64,000 nucleotides of DNA, from contig NZ_JACBYW010000008.1 of NCBI RefSeq assembly GCF_013408175.1, positions 1-64,000 of the forward strand, read 5' to 3'. This document shows positions 57,721 to 64,000 of the stretch, in pieces. Position numbers and translations under genes: made by a program. Source of the stretch: Actinopolyspora biskrensis. Its GTDB lineage: Bacteria > Actinomycetota > Actinomycetes > Mycobacteriales > Pseudonocardiaceae. Below the pieces are notes generated by a model, which was not told where the DNA came from, searched no databases, and was given only the letters and a program-made list of their open reading frames with translations. Position 1 is the stretch's first letter. Each line of letters begins with the position of its first letter.

Positions 57721-58137
57721 TCACGCCGGGGTGGCTATGGCGTCGACTTCGACCAGCTGGTCGTCGTAGCCGAGCAGGCTCACGCCGAGCAGTGTGGCGG
57801 GAGGGGCGTGGGTTCCGAATTCGTCACGTACCGCGTTCCACGTGGTGCGTAGCCGTCCGCGGTCCCGGGTCGCCACGTAGACGGTGCAACGCACCACGTG
57901 GTCGAGGTCGGTTTCGGCCTCGCGCAGGGTCGCCGCCAGATTGCGCACGCACTGCCGGGCCTGTCCCGCGGGATCGTCGACGCACACGGTCGCGCCGTGC
58001 TCGTCCAGCGGGCAGGCCCCGGCCGTGATCACGAGCGGGCCGTTCGTGCGGGCGGCACAGGCGTAGTCCACCGAGCGGCACCCGTGTCGTTCGCTCCGGG
58101 GGAATACCGCGGAGGGGAACGGGGCTCTCCGCGGCAT
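57721..58137 (-). CDS. RidA/YjgF-family protein
   Basis: A 138-residue RidA-like protein: NGPLVITAGACPLDEHG, DPAGQARQCVRNLAATLREA, VVRCTVYVATRDR, ATLLGVSLLGYDDQLVEVDA, with the Arg of RCTVYV and the Glu of VEVDA at the positions of the active cleft. RidA hydrolyses reactive enamine/imine intermediates, but this subgroup is diverse and may do otherwise. Its promoter carries an AT-only palindrome in the spacer. The N-terminal 25 residues look atypical; the true start may be GTG (VDYACAART). Confidence 0.85.
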   Translation of the reverse strand: MPRRAPFPSAVFPRSERHGCRSVDYACAARTNGPLVITAGACPLDEHGATVCVDDPAGQARQCVRNLAATLREAETDLDHVVRCTVYVATRDRGRLRTTWNAVRDEFGTHAPPATLLGVSLLGYDDQLVEVDAIATPA

Positions 58138-58229: not shown

Positions 58230-58339
58230 CATCGTGTAGTCGCCGGGGCGTCCTCCGGGGGACGTTCGGATCGCGGCGTTCCGCGCGCTTTTGTGACCTG
58301 GAGCATGGTCGCACCGTGTTATTCTCGCAGGACCAGGCG

Positions 58340-58861
58340 ATGTCGGCTCGCACAAGCTCTGTTCGAAAGGACATTCGGAAAGTGCGCGCGCGCTATGAGA
58401 ACGCGACGAACGAGTCCAGCACACTGGCCAAGCGGCTGCGCGCACTCTTCGACACCGTGCGTTACCGTGACAGACGCGGAAAATGGAAACCCTACAGCAC
58501 GAAATTCGCGGCTGAGTCGATCAGCGCCGATCCCGAGCACGCGACCACGCTCGGGGCCAACTACCTCGACGGATTGCGCAACGGCAGGCACACCAATCCG
58601 TCCGCGGACGTGCTGCGAGCCATCGCGAAGTTCTTCAACGACCGTCGCCACTCCGAAACCGCGCCGGTGACGGTGGACTACCTGCTCGGCTCGGAAAGCG
58701 ATGCCGACCGTGTCCTGCGGGCGAAACTGCAGGAGCACCGGGTGCGCGCCATAGCCATGCGTGCGGGTGAGCTCGACGCGGGACTGCAGGAGCAGGTGCT
58801 GGACATGCTGGAACTGCTCGACGAACACCCGGAGCAACAACGGGATCAGCGCTCGGACTGA
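58340..58861 (+). CDS. HTH (XRE-like) DNA-binding protein
   Basis: A 173-residue protein with a basic N-terminus (SSVRKDIRKVRARYENATNE), a central HTH-like region (TLAKRLRALFDTVRYRD ... NYLDGLRNGRHTNPSADVLRAIAKFFN), and a helical C-terminal domain (LRAKLQEHRVRAIAMRAGEL, LQEQVLDMLELLDEHPEQ). The style is that of EspR-like and other actinobacterial XRE regulators that dimerise through a C-terminal helix. ATG 58340 is chosen; GTG 58316 is possible. Divergent from ridA, across its promoter palindrome. Confidence 0.75.
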   Translation: MSARTSSVRKDIRKVRARYENATNESSTLAKRLRALFDTVRYRDRRGKWKPYSTKFAAESISADPEHATTLGANYLDGLRNGRHTNPSADVLRAIAKFFNDRRHSETAPVTVDYLLGSESDADRVLRAKLQEHRVRAIAMRAGELDAGLQEQVLDMLELLDEHPEQQRDQRSD

Positions 58862-59148: not shown

Positions 59149-60186
59149 TCAGTGGTCGCGCCGGGTGGCCAGCCGCGCCAGCTCGGTCAGTTCGGACACG
59201 GCGGCCCCTTCGAGGCCTCCGTCGAGCTCGTTCAGGGCCACGCCCAGCAGCCGGTCGGCCTCATCGAGGCTGAACCGTCTGCCACCGGCACGTTCGACCA
59301 GGTTCGCCGCGTGTTGCACCTCCTGTTCGGACAGTGCTCGATCGTTCCGGTAGAGCTCGTTCAACTCCTCGGCCGCGGGAGTGTCCGAATGCAACGCGGC
59401 CAGTATCGGGAGTGTCTTCTTGCGGGACCGCAGATCCGAGTGAATCGGCTTGCCCGTCACCGATGGATCTCCCCAGATCCCCAGGAGATCGTCGACGTGT
59501 TGGAAGGCCAGCCCGATACACCGGCCGAACCGGCCGAGCCTGCTCACCTGCTGCTCGGTTCCTCCGCCGAAAGAAGCTCCCAACGCACAGGCACAACCGA
59601 GCAGAGCACCGGTTTTGGCCTCGGCCATGTCCACGCACTCGTCCACGGCGACGTACCGACGCTGCTCGAACTCCATGTCCGTGCTCTGACCGTGGATGAG
59701 CGTGTGCACGGTCCTGCTGAGGTCACGGGCCGCTTCCACGGCCACCGGGCTCTCGCTGGTCACCAGCACTTCTGTCGCGGCCGTGAGCATCGCGTCACCG
59801 GCGAGGATCGCCGCACCCGTCCCGAAAACCGCCCAGGCGCTGGGCCGGTGCCTCCGCGTCTCGTCCCCGTCGATGACATCGTCGTGCAGCAGCGAGAAGT
59901 TGTGCACGAGCTCCACGGCGACCGCGGCGGGCACGGCCGCCTCGGCCGAACCTCCCACGGACTGCGCCGCGGACAGCACCAAGGCAGGGCGCAGCGCTTT
60001 TCCGCCCCGGACCTCGTGCGGAGCGCCCTGCTCGTCGCACCAGCCGAGGTGGTAGGCGGCAACGGCGCGTGCCTCGTCGGGAAGCCGTTCCACCGAGGCC
60101 CGCAGGGCGGGGTGCGTCAGAGCACGGCTGTGCTCCAGCGTGTCGCGGGAGGGCCCCGCGTTGTCCCTTGAGTCGACGAGAGTCAC
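59149..60186 (-). CDS. Polyprenyl diphosphate synthase (encapsulin operon)
   Basis: A 345-residue trans-prenyltransferase with both Asp-rich motifs: LLHDDVIDGDETRRHRPS (first, DDVID at residues 102-106) and GLAFQHVDDLLGIWGDPS (second, DDLLG). The Lys-Arg before the first (GGKALRP) and KTGALLGCACALG are also typical. The residue pattern before FARM (NFSLL) suggests a C10-C20 product; I cannot fix the length. It probably makes the precursor for the terpene cyclase upstream. The first about 25 residues (VTLVDSRDNAGPSRDTLEHS) are disordered-looking and may be a shell-targeting peptide. It starts 23 bp after the encapsulin stop. Confidence 0.9.
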   Translation of the reverse strand: MTLVDSRDNAGPSRDTLEHSRALTHPALRASVERLPDEARAVAAYHLGWCDEQGAPHEVRGGKALRPALVLSAAQSVGGSAEAAVPAAVAVELVHNFSLLHDDVIDGDETRRHRPSAWAVFGTGAAILAGDAMLTAATEVLVTSESPVAVEAARDLSRTVHTLIHGQSTDMEFEQRRYVAVDECVDMAEAKTGALLGCACALGASFGGGTEQQVSRLGRFGRCIGLAFQHVDDLLGIWGDPSVTGKPIHSDLRSRKKTLPILAALHSDTPAAEELNELYRNDRALSEQEVQHAANLVERAGGRRFSLDEADRLLGVALNELDGGLEGAAVSELTELARLATRRDH

Positions 60187-60208
60187 TGACAACAGTCCTT
60201 TCCCCGCT

Positions 60209-61648
60209 TCAGCGGGACACTTCCACGTGCTCGAGCACTCCGAGCGCGTCGGGGACCAGCACGGCGGCGGAGTAGTAGGCGCTGACGAGGTAGGAGATGA
60301 TCGCCTTCTCGTCGATGCCCATGAAACGGACATTGAGACCCGGAGCGTACTCGTCGGGGATGCCCGTTTGGTGCAGCCCGACCACCCCTTCGTTTTCCTC
60401 CCCTGTGCGCAGCACCAGAACGGAACTGGTGCCCGTCTCGCTGATGGGGATCTTGTCGCAGGGCAGCAGTGGAACGTCGCGCCAGGAAATCACGGGCGCA
60501 CCCTGGTGCCGGATCGTTCTGGGGCGAATACCGCGACGGTTGCACTCCCGCCCGAAGGCGGCGATCACCCTCGGGTGGGCCAGGAAGAACTCGGACCTTC
60601 TGCGGCGAGCGAGGAGTTCGTCGAGGTCGTCGGGGGTGGGCGGGCCGCTTCGGGTGTGGAGGCGCTGGGTGAGGTCGGCGTTGTGCAGCAGCCCGAACTC
60701 GCGGTTGTTGACCAGCTCCTCCTCCTGGCGCTCGCGCAGCGCCTCGACGGTGAGGGCGAGTTGTCGTTCGGTCTGGTTCATCGGCTGGTTGTACAGATCG
60801 GCCACCCGGCTGTGCACCCGCAACACCGTCTGGGCCACGCTGAGCTCGTACTCCCGGGGAGCCGGCTCGTAATCCACGTACGTCCCCGCCAACGGCGGCT
60901 CACCGGTGTGCCCCGATTCGATGTGGATATCGGCTTCACCGCGCCTGTTGTGCGGCGGTACCGACTGGGAAACGACCTGCCGAAGATGAGTGTTCAGCCC
61001 CGTGAACCGTCGCTCCATTTCGCGGGCTTCCCGCAGGGGGAGGGTCAGCACGGTGCAGGCGGTGATGGCCTTGAGGGTGTGTTGCCAGGTGCCGGTGTCC
61101 TCGACCAGTACCCGCTGCCCGATGTGGTCCCCGTCGGCGAGAACGTCGAGCACGGTGTCCTCGCCGTACTCGCCGGGGCCGATCCGGTTGGCCTTGCCGT
61201 GTGCCATCAGCACCACCCGGTCGGCCGGACCGCCCCGTTCGACGATGGGATCTCCGGCAGCGTAGTGCTGCTGGGTGAACCGGTCGGCCAGCGCGGCCAG
61301 CGCCGACTCGTCGTCGAACCCGCGCAGCAGCGGAAGTTCCCGCAGCTCCTGCGGGATCACCCGCATCTCGGCACCGGTGCTGACGAAGGTCAACCGACCG
61401 TCACCGAGCAAATAGGTCAGTCGTCGATTGACGCGATAGGTACCCGCCTGGACCTGCACCCAGGGCAGCATCCGCAGCAACCATCGCGAGGAGATCCCCT
61501 GCATCTGCGGCGCCGACTTGGTCGTCGTCGCCAAATTACGGGCGGCCCCCGTGGTCAGGCTCGAGGTGTTGGTGGAAGCCGCGGTCTCGTCCGGTTCGGT
61601 GGTTGTCACAGCGCCGGTCACCAATCCTGTCGAAGAGCGGTGCGTCAC
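60209..61648 (-). CDS. Family 2B encapsulin shell protein (EshA-like, with cyclic-nucleotide-binding-like domain)
   Basis: A 479-residue shell protein of encapsulin family 2B. Residues 1-45 are disordered (Ser/Thr-rich), then an HK97-type N-arm and P-domain start ([26 protein letters not shown]), a Crp-like cyclic-nucleotide-binding insert at about 105-225 ([22 protein letters not shown]), and the main HK97 fold after residue 250 ([77 protein letters not shown]). It assembles into a protein nanocompartment. It stands between a terpene cyclase and a prenyl synthase, both plausible cargo. GTG start at 61648; 61621 is an alternative. Confidence 0.9.
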
Positions 61649-61714
61649 ACGTTTCCGTCGACCGTGTGAGGAGGTCTCGGCAACGTTGTCGGAACGAAGA
61701 AATGGGCGGTCGGG

Positions 61715-63940
61715 TCAGTGCGGTGCTTCGTCGCGAGTTCGGGGGAGGCGCGGGACGCCGGTGGACGCGAGACTCGCGTCCGGCCCGTGCAGCGTCCGTC
61801 GGGACGCCAACGAGGTGGTCCTGCCCGTGGTGCTGCCGCGCCCTGTGGTCAGCAACCAGCTCAGCTCTCCGGCGAGCCAGGTTTCGAGTCGTTCGAGAAG
61901 ACCGTCGAGTCGTTCGTCCTCCCGCGGGGACGGTTCGTGCTCGACACGCAACGCGGGAATCTCCTCCGTGAGAAGGTGGTGGAAGCGCTGTTGGCGGGCT
62001 TCGATCAGATCGGCCAGGACAGCGCCGGCTCGTGAAGCGTCACAGCCGAGGAAGCGTTGTACGGTCAGTACCGCGTTCCCGCTTTCCGCGCCGTGCTCTT
62101 GCTTCCGGCAGAAGAGGTCGTTGCGCAGCGTGCCGATCTCGGCGAACGTCCGGGTCAGCTCCCGCAGCTGTCTGCTGCGGTGCAGTGTGTCGTCGAGCGG
62201 GGCGTCCATGGTGAGTCGGATCAGTGCCAGCGAGAGCCCACCTGTCCCGGTCCGTCCGCGTTTCCCGATGAGCTCGACGGGGTCGGCGATTCCGCTCCGG
62301 GTGAGGTCGACCGGTTCGCGCAGCCGGTTTCCGAGGAAGTCCCGCAGGTCTTCGGTGAATCGTCTTCGGGGGTGGGTGGGCATGCTCGTTCTCGTGCGGG
62401 CCAGCAGTTCGGCCAGTGCGTGTTCGGCCGGTCCGCTGGGATGTGGAGCCGTTTCGGGAGGCCGCTCCAGGACGGTGAGGAGTCTGTCGACGAAGATCCG
62501 GGCGCCGGCCGTGTCACGGGGTCGTTCGAATTCCGCGACGAACAGCTCGTCCAGGTAGTCCGCCCAGATGTGCCAGTCGGCGACCAGGGTAAGTTCCGCT
62601 TCGCCCGCGTCCGGGCGTGTGAGTGCGGCGTACAGGGCGTGGTCGGTCGCCGCGAAGGTGTCCTCGTTCCAGACGGTGGTTTCGAGCAGACCGTGCCGTT
62701 CGACCCAGGACCTGGTGTGTTCGCGCAGTTGGTTCAGCAGCGGATTCGGCGCGACCTCGTGGGGCGGGCGGGAATCGGTTGGTTCGAACGGCCGGTTCCG
62801 CTCTCGACCAGTGGGCCGATCACGCGTGGTGTCCGTGATCGCGCCAGGCGGGCATTGCTCTGGTGGGAGAGCCGACATTCCGGTTCTGCTGGGCAGGCCG
62901 AGCAGCCGGCTGATTTCCGGTGGTCCGCTCGGCTCGGAGCTCATGTACCGGCTCGAGAGCGAGTGCCACTCGTGTCCACCGGCCTGCCAGTCCCGCAGCC
63001 CTTGGACGTAGCCGAGAACGTCGGCACGTCCGGCCGGTTCGAGGGCGTGTTCGACGAACAGCGGCGGCAGTGCCGCGGCCGCGGTCTCGTCGAACCGGTG
63101 CAGTCGTGAGGTCAGCAGGTCGTTGGTGATGTCGGCGGCCCGCTGTGGTGAGCACTCGAAGAAGTGCTCGATCACCAGCACACCGTTGTTGACTTCTCCT
63201 TCCTCCTGCGTTTCTCGCTGATAGGAGAACAGGTCGTTGCGCAGGTGTACCCCGTCGGAGAACGCGTCGGCGAGCACGCGGAGCGGGTGGGTGTGGGCCA
63301 TGGAAGGGGGAAGTTCGGCCTCCCTCGCGTACTCGACCAGGTGCGCCGCCCACTGCGCCCCGCCGAACTCGCGGTGTGTCTCGATGTGGTCGATCGGGTT
63401 CGGGACACGGTCGCTGGCGATGTTGACCAGTTCCCGCACGAGGCCCTCGAACAGGTTCCGGGTGCTTTCTGCGAAGCGCAGCGACCATCCGGGCGACATC
63501 TGCCCGGCCGTGCGAGCCCACAGGTCGGACAACCCGCGTTCGACGGGATCACCGGGCCGCTGGGGAGACTTCGTGGGACGGGTCGGCATGAACCGTTCCA
63601 GGCCACGCAGGTACTCCCCGGCCAGGTCAGGCCGGTCGGTTCGTTTGTGACGGTCCAGGAAGTAGTCGTCGAGGAAGAACGCCCACACGTACCAGTCGGT
63701 GACCAGTTTCAGTCTGGGCGCCGTCGCGTCGGGGTGCGTGTAGCCGCACAGCAGGGCGTAGTCGTGCTCGTCGAAGTCGGCTTCGGACCAGACGGCTGTT
63801 TCCCCCGGCGCCTCGTCGTCGGTGAGCATTCCCATGTCCAGGGCCCACTGTTTGCTGTGGACCCGTGCCGCTGTCACGTGCGGGTTCAAACGGGCCGAGT
63901 AGGGCATGTAGAAACCGGGGAGTTCGAAGGGCCGTGGCAA
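61715..63940 (-). CDS. Two-domain terpene cyclase, geosmin-synthase-like (encapsulin cargo candidate)
   Basis: A 741-residue class I terpene synthase with two alpha domains. The N-domain opens PFELPGFYMPYSARLNPHVT, has the Asp-rich motif DDYFLD (residues 91-96) and the NSE triad NDLFSYQRE (235-243), and matches geosmin synthase closely. A disordered linker runs from about 335 to 400. The C-domain has a degenerate first motif (DELFV at 464-468) and NDLFCRKQE (607-615), where the Ser of the NSE triad is Cys. The tail after about 690 is low-complexity and Arg/Thr/Ser-rich. TTG start 5 bases after the upstream encapsulin stop. Product may be geosmin-like or a different sesquiterpenoid; the C-domain changes leave this open. 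Confidence 0.87.
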   Translation of the reverse strand: MPRPFELPGFYMPYSARLNPHVTAARVHSKQWALDMGMLTDDEAPGETAVWSEADFDEHDYALLCGYTHPDATAPRLKLVTDWYVWAFFLDDYFLDRHKRTDRPDLAGEYLRGLERFMPTRPTKSPQRPGDPVERGLSDLWARTAGQMSPGWSLRFAESTRNLFEGLVRELVNIASDRVPNPIDHIETHREFGGAQWAAHLVEYAREAELPPSMAHTHPLRVLADAFSDGVHLRNDLFSYQRETQEEGEVNNGVLVIEHFFECSPQRAADITNDLLTSRLHRFDETAAAALPPLFVEHALEPAGRADVLGYVQGLRDWQAGGHEWHSLSSRYMSSEPSGPPEISRLLGLPSRTGMSALPPEQCPPGAITDTTRDRPTGRERNRPFEPTDSRPPHEVAPNPLLNQLREHTRSWVERHGLLETTVWNEDTFAATDHALYAALTRPDAGEAELTLVADWHIWADYLDELFVAEFERPRDTAGARIFVDRLLTVLERPPETAPHPSGPAEHALAELLARTRTSMPTHPRRRFTEDLRDFLGNRLREPVDLTRSGIADPVELIGKRGRTGTGGLSLALIRLTMDAPLDDTLHRSRQLRELTRTFAEIGTLRNDLFCRKQEHGAESGNAVLTVQRFLGCDASRAGAVLADLIEARQQRFHHLLTEEIPALRVEHEPSPREDERLDGLLERLETWLAGELSWLLTTGRGSTTGRTTSLASRRTLHGPDASLASTGVPRLPRTRDEAPH

Positions 63941-63945
63941 AGCGC

Positions 63946-64000
63946 TCAGTCCTGTCGCCCGATCTCGACGTGTTCGAGCACTCCGAGTGCGTCGGGGACC
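63946..64000 (-). CDS. Second family 2B encapsulin shell gene, 3' end only
   Basis: The last 18 bp-codons in the window read [17 protein letters not shown] and stop at TGA 63946-63948. This is nearly the same as the end of the complete encapsulin ([15 protein letters not shown]), so a second shell gene lies upstream of the terpene cyclase, running out of the window. Only its C-terminus is visible. Confidence 0.75.
   Translation of the reverse strand, partial: VPDALGVLEHVEIGRQD

Follow-up and report, generated by a model that had tools for sequence, protein, structure and literature searches.

Among Family 2B encapsulins, 904 operons with a terpene cyclase (TC) and 900 with a polyprenyl synthase (PT) have been reported, with 165 systems encoding both (Andreas and Giessen 2021, PMC8346489). 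In that account, geosmin synthase-like (GS-like) cargo cyclases of two domains carry the sequence GPTGLGTSAAR both in the interdomain region and at the C-terminal end, and PT cargo has a disordered N-terminal domain of 50-100 amino acids. Five two-component operon types have since been defined (Dutcher, Andreas and Giessen 2025, PMC12407261). In the TC/PT type the TC may sit between the shell genes Enc1 and Enc2 with the PT directly after Enc2, and the two kinds of shell are separated by a diagnostic motif 1 (TVWK-like or RRRK-like) and likewise by a motif 2. The same work describes Sl-Enc1 and Sl-Enc2 of S. lydicus, which co-assemble into mixed shells and differ in cryo-electron microscopy (cryo-EM) at the N-arm, motif 1 and motif 2. 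We analyzed 64,000 nucleotides from Actinopolyspora biskrensis (assembly GCF_013408175.1, contig NZ_JACBYW010000008.1, positions 1 to 64,000 of the forward strand; hereafter the window), which end in a four-gene operon. Judged by gene order and sequence motifs, this operon is a member of the published two-component TC/PT type, and the arrangement itself was already known. Like other members it has the order Enc1-TC-Enc2-PT, a cNMP-like domain in both shells, the diagnostic motifs and a GS-like two-domain TC. It differs in the impaired second domain of its cyclase, its eroded GPTGLGTSAAR tags, its homogenised shell genes and its place as a second copy beside a canonical operon. What goes beyond the known type is thus a genome with a canonical copy and a geosmin synthase besides, a degenerating cyclase, and shells that have undergone gene conversion.

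All four genes are on the minus strand in the order Enc1, TC, Enc2 and PT. The window ends inside Enc1, of which it holds the 55 bp of the C-terminal end (63946..64000); the whole gene, read from the genome contig beyond the window, spans 63946-65349 of contig C8 (8946-10349 of locus L009). The TC (61715..63940; 741 amino acids, TTG start) matches PF19086 in two stretches, Enc2 (60209..61648) has 479 amino acids, and the PT (59149..60186; 345 amino acids, GTG start) matches PF00348. Both shells match PF19307 and PF00027, the Family 2 (SrpI-like) HK97 domain with an inserted cNMP-like domain that defines Family 2B, and their best solved-structure matches by sequence are 9bix, 9bje and 9bhu (470-477 residues). 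The two shell genes lie within 10 kb of each other and carry diagnostic motifs 1 and 2, the TC is flanked by Enc1 and Enc2, and the PT is directly 3' of Enc2. With start and stop codons verified, the intergenic gaps measure 5 bp (Enc1/TC), 66 bp (TC/Enc2) and 22 bp (Enc2/PT).

A preliminary description made from the window alone had proposed these four genes in this order with gaps of 5-66 bp, the first of them from 55 bp only. Reading past position 64000 recovered a full Enc1 shell gene (C8 65349-63946), and Pfam matches and gene order agree with the Family 2B shells, the two-shell operon, the geosmin synthase-like cyclase and the co-encoded PT. The operon does combine precursor-making and precursor-using enzymes, as that description emphasized, but this is not new, 165 clusters with both TC and PT being in print (PMC8346489). 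Its "large bifunctional-type cyclase" holds for ancestry but probably not for present chemistry, as conserved metal-site residues of the second domain are lost. A chance arrangement was rejected because orthologues and a paralogous operon elsewhere in the genome have this gene order too. A promoter and terminator scan was uninformative, with no promoter-like sites and two terminator-like sites against a shuffle mean of 4.2.

The two cyclase domains expected of a GS-like cargo are apparent in the Pfam stretches and in an AlphaFold2 model of the whole protein (mean predicted local distance difference test score (pLDDT) 83.8); the VIA comparison of the TC listed almost only domain 1. Domain 1 (residues 3-335; 62936..63934, minus strand) retains DDYFLD, NDLFSYQRE and RY along with 101 of 112 near-invariant positions. 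The best solved-structure match of the TC is 5dz2, the N domain of geosmin synthase, with which domain 1 shares fold and metal motifs. A mostly disordered linker (residues 336-392; 62765..62935, minus strand; pLDDT <50 at 336-384) leads to domain 2 (residues 393-703; 61832..62764, minus strand). There the model has a similar folded helical bundle, matching PF19086, but unlike those of germacradienol/geosmin synthase its metal motifs are degenerate: DD has become DE, the NSE Ser is Cys and the RY Tyr is Gly. Only 28 of 46 near-invariant positions are retained and 18 of 46 have changed, an impairment read from the motif alignment and the model. A bifunctional geosmin synthase has Asp-rich and NSE motifs in both domains; here the first domain is intact and the second degenerate, and the gene, unlike that for germacradienol/geosmin synthase, sits between shell genes. 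In the four orthologues of this operon, which with it we call b-type, the domain 2 metal motifs are plainly dead. The linker holds a loading-tag remnant, GLPSRTGMSAL, that is degenerate against GPTGLGTSAAR, and the C-terminal copy of the tag is unrecognisable in alignments.

Since the N domain of geosmin synthase yields germacradienol (PMC10881772, PMC7192455), our best guess is that the TC would make a germacradienol-type sesquiterpenoid rather than geosmin. KaGerS of Kutzneria albida, a GS-like germacradienol/germacrene D synthase (50% identity, termed a "fragment"), gives a precedent for such N-domain chemistry without geosmin (PMC7192455). Unlike the TC it is apparently single-domain, and the available account of it mentions no shell operon.

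We surveyed domain 2 loss in 132 distinct full-length two-domain cyclases, kept from 187 matches after removal of duplicates. The sample is uneven, many of its rows having come from the top 80 of 209 relatives that a search with the window TC retrieved. A shell was counted as adjacent within the fetched stretch and 1.5 kb, and some cyclases scored with one shell or none may hide another; at L141, for instance, the second shell lies further off than this limit. None of the 132 had lost the domain 1 motifs. The domain 2 motifs were lost in seven of the 24 cyclases between two shells, in none of 17 with one adjacent shell and in none of 91 with no shell (0/108 elsewhere). We attach no p-value to this association, given non-independent rows and a sample weighted toward relatives of the window TC. 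Those with the loss are the window cyclase, its orthologues L123-L126, L030 of Actinomadura parmotrematis and L197 (genome G313). The same motifs are lost in the split relative L200 (G016); this one, the split cyclase of L198 and a shortened cyclase in the same-genus genome G008 stand outside the 132 rows. The best domain 1 tree, drawn without L124, requires three changes. A single origin of all losses was rejected (p-AU 0.0024 by the approximately unbiased test, with seven dead rows in the tree), and joining L030 to the b-type clade was not (p-AU 0.069). For that reason the trees point to at least two independent losses, with a third on the best tree only.

L198, L199 and L200 (G025, G028 and G016) are Enc...Enc-PT operons with split or extra cyclase open reading frames (ORFs) between the shells, a one-domain ORF together with a longer or a second one-domain ORF. 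The motifs of L199 were counted as intact while its first domain has 60 of 112 near-invariant residues, so the near-invariant share alone is no proof of death.

The shell genes of the b-type operon have a history of their own. Seven tracts are identical between Enc1 and Enc2 in the shell DNA alignment, lying in Enc2 (minus strand) at 61487..61537, 61382..61423, 61277..61363, 61133..61246 (the core of the cNMP-like domain), 60770..60904, 60611..60745 (stopping just before motif 1) and 60248..60295 (near the C terminus). The longest DNA-identical runs are of 45, 45, 38 and 29 codons, and the tract coordinates were verified. Where the amino acid is identical in shared tracts, the window Enc1 and Enc2 use the same codon in 182 of 182 cases, against 113 of 168 between the window Enc1 and the Enc1 of L123. 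The tracts used for codon counts and trees were picked for identity in both genomes, with the islands as the remainder, so identity within them is by construction. A permutation of silent run lengths is independent of that pick, and neither the window pair nor the L123 pair was matched in 10000 permutations (0/10000 each), against p 0.42 for the canonical pair on contig C1. Across 27 distinct two-shell loci only the three testable b-type pairs, L009 (the window), L123 and L126, reached 0/5000 and stayed significant after correction; the next lowest, L140 at 0.0066, fails correction for 27 tests. This test left out the L125 Enc1 and both G008 shell cores, which contain runs of N, and the interrupted L124 Enc1. 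In L126 (G003) Enc1 equals Enc2 from codon 57 on, a possible repeat artefact of a draft assembly on which we do not rely.

Trees, built without L124 Enc1 and L125 Enc1, differ between the two kinds of sequence. Island trees join the window Enc1 to the L123 Enc1 (100/99) and the window Enc2 to the remaining b-type Enc2 genes (100/100). Tract trees make no distinction between the two window shells, which are identical there and form the sister group of the other b-type shells, Enc1 and Enc2 alike. Going by these alignments, gene conversion moves sequence between Enc1 and Enc2 and leaves the islands different. Recent tandem duplication of one shell gene was rejected because the islands of each shell type group with their own kind from other genomes, and purifying selection alone as the source of the tracts was rejected by the silent-codon run-length permutation. 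The shells of L014 and of L030 also pair in the tract tree (95/94 and 82/88), where older conversion may have occurred.

Unconverted islands remain at the N terminus, over a short stretch near column 70, along the cNMP-like domain edges and in an A-domain stretch with both diagnostic motifs. The latter holds motif 1, RRRR in Enc2 (60596..60607, minus strand) and LVWK in Enc1, and the motif 2 region (60488..60517, minus strand), where Enc1 has STDINGHQVP and Enc2 differs (motif definitions from PMC12407261). The islands overlap the three regions in which Sl-Enc1 and Sl-Enc2 differ by cryo-EM, the N-arm, motif 1 and motif 2. Both systems thus have two shell proteins that differ at these places; the S. 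lydicus pair sits in an XK operon without terpene cargo, unlike the window pair. The b-type shell cores of two draft genomes contain runs of N (L203 4956-5890 and 6907-7916; L125 10580-11434), a pattern that would suit near-identical copies left unresolved in assembly and equally sequence that had been withheld.

A DNA search of the A. biskrensis genome found a second Enc1-TC-Enc2-PT operon in the same order on contig C1, the canonical or a-type operon, and a geosmin synthase-like gene on contig C6, where the 20 kb read contains no shell. In both of these cyclases the GPTGLGTSAA-type tags are retained, as are the metal motifs of either domain. The window operon, compared in sequence with the C1 copy, is a fast-changing paralogue of it. 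Among same-genus genomes, all four a-type genes are present in ten of ten, the b-type TC in five of ten and a third, C6-like cyclase in seven of ten, with G002 matched in pieces only. The b-type locus is syntenic in its flanking genes in all five carriers. In G008 the PT is full-length without internal stops and the shell ends are retained, while the TC is shortened to 183 amino acids without an NSE motif; in G002 the locus is reduced to a PT fragment of about 140 amino acids. G001 and G005 hold short pieces of one flanking gene and the RidA and XRE-like neighbors with the operon absent, and G006 matches one flank only. From synteny in five genomes and remnants or absence in the other five, the b-type operon was probably ancestral in the genus and then repeatedly lost or eroded. 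The genes matched at the operon-less site of G001 and G005 lie just 3' of the PT in the window: a RidA-like gene (57721-58137, PF01042) and an ORF without a Pfam match that looks XRE-like by eye (58316-58861).

Several features of the other cyclase loci deserve mention. The GS-like genes on contig C6 of A. biskrensis (L011 9494-12868) and in G007 (L136 8291-10576), the two genomes in which the surroundings of the C6-like cyclase were read, have GPNGLGTSA / PTGLGTSAA-type loading tags and no encapsulin in the 19-20 kb read. Given these tags, such unlinked cyclases might enter, in trans, the shells of other loci. The canonical operon of A. biskrensis has a minus-strand ORF between Enc2 and PT (L010 15212-15865) that resembles the C-terminal part of a zinc-ribbon transposase and that we take, by eye, to be IS605 OrfB-like. 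Divergent from this operon is a Nudix ORF (L010 9128-9748), isopentenyl-diphosphate-isomerase-like by eye. The canonical cyclase is 92-94% identical to that of A. biskrensis in two same-genus genomes and 75-76% in the other seven, and the canonical-type cyclase of Halosaccharopolyspora lacisalsi (L033/L140) is 92% identical to it; the canonical operon may have been transferred.

The b-type PT has both Asp-rich motifs (LLHDDVIDGD and HVDDLLGIWGD), and the Phe and Ser before the first of them presumably fit a C15-C20 product. Its best Protein Data Bank match, 3nf2, already begins at PT residue 16, so the disordered N-terminal domain of 50-100 amino acids is missing. By the published description of PT cargo, this short N terminus argues against the PT being cargo. 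Channelling from an encapsulated PT is weakened likewise, as the long disordered N terminus is wanting and the TC tags are eroded.

Bringing these observations together, we infer the following working of the b-type copy, to which we assign a probability of about 0.55. Enc1 and Enc2 would co-assemble into one mixed shell, and the PT, probably outside it or loosely attached, would supply a prenyl diphosphate (C15 or C20). The TC would be held inside with only its N-terminal domain turning over, giving a germacradienol/germacrene D-type sesquiterpenoid and not geosmin, and domain 2 would serve as a folded non-catalytic partner. The shell cores would be homogenised by gene conversion, with selection maintaining the differences at motifs 1 and 2, at the cNMP-like domain edges and in the N terminus, in a lineage that is under relaxed constraint and repeatedly lost in the genus. 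A number of results weigh against this. Degeneration of domain 2 is incomplete in the window (D, N, Cys and E at the four scored positions), and weak activity is therefore possible. A Phe to Leu change stands immediately before the DD of domain 1 in all five b-type cyclases, and of its 112 near-invariant positions the four orthologues retain only 74-77; the product may therefore be a different one, or there may be none, and with eroded tags loading may fail. The simpler longest-silent-run test gives the window shells p = 0.018 only, and relaxed selection with repeated loss would suit plain decay too.

Decay is the substance of a rival in which the b-type operon is a redundant paralogue being lost, with no selected function in this strain. 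Five same-genus genomes without an intact b-type TC, with remnants (G008, G002) or flank matches only (G001, G005, G006), count in its favor, as do a raised ratio of nonsynonymous to synonymous substitution rates (dN/dS) for the TC in the orthologues and an Enc1 frame interrupted in the draft of G004 (L124). We consider a relic unlikely, as all five b-type genomes have uninterrupted TC, Enc2 and PT frames, purifying selection continues among the four orthologues (dN/dS 0.13-0.30 for Enc2 and 0.06-0.34 for PT), and the window domain 1 keeps 101 of its 112 near-invariant residues. The b-type Enc1 value (0.36, one pair) is confounded by conversion and was not used.

These ratios also bear on whether the operon is turning from TC/PT to PT-only or shell-only with a vestigial cyclase, since constraint is mostly stronger on PT and Enc2 than on TC. 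G008 has a PT without internal stops beside a shortened TC and two shell genes, and PT operons are common in Family 2B (900 operons, with 165 clusters also encoding TC; PMC8346489). Yet the PT lacks the long disordered N terminus of PT cargo and the G008 shell cores read as N, and such a switch seems to us quite improbable. The preliminary description had instead a bifunctional cyclase and PT both within the shell, channelling precursor to a volatile such as geosmin. The gene content would allow it, and the metal motifs of the window domain 2 have kept their first Asp, their Asn and their Glu. Against it stand the changes of DD to DE and NSE Ser to Cys, the loss of the RY Tyr, the 18 of 46 near-invariant residues altered, the plainly dead domain 2 of the orthologues, the eroded tags, and the presence in the genome of a canonical TC whose motifs are intact and of an unlinked geosmin synthase; we regard this model as very unlikely.

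Production of 2-methylisoborneol inside an encapsulin has reportedly been described in one paper. Our literature search, which covered few subscription papers or preprints, found no report of a failing second domain, eroded tags, concerted shell genes or repeated loss. Within the same coverage, encapsulin with "gene conversion" returned only a giant-virus paper, with "concerted evolution" or with Actinopolyspora nothing, and with "geosmin synthase" only the 2021 paper (PMC8346489).

A broader proposal can be made tentatively, with the odds against it. Flanking by two shell genes would go with loss of the second reaction of a bifunctional cyclase, domain 2 becoming a folded pseudo-cyclase that scaffolds or loads domain 1; at least two such losses (three on the best tree) would have occurred, with every case to date in an Enc-TC-Enc operon. 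Conversion would homogenise the shells while selection spares the N-arm, the cNMP-like domain edges and motifs 1 and 2, marking the parts needed for a heteromeric shell. The recurrent domain 2 loss would let the idea of a pseudo-enzyme domain inside a compartment be tested directly, and the canonical, degenerate and unlinked cyclases of this one genome can be compared for loading. The map of islands bears on why some encapsulins need two shell proteins. That map is a natural experiment and an independent line of evidence, pointing as the S. lydicus cryo-EM did to the N-arm, motif 1 and motif 2.
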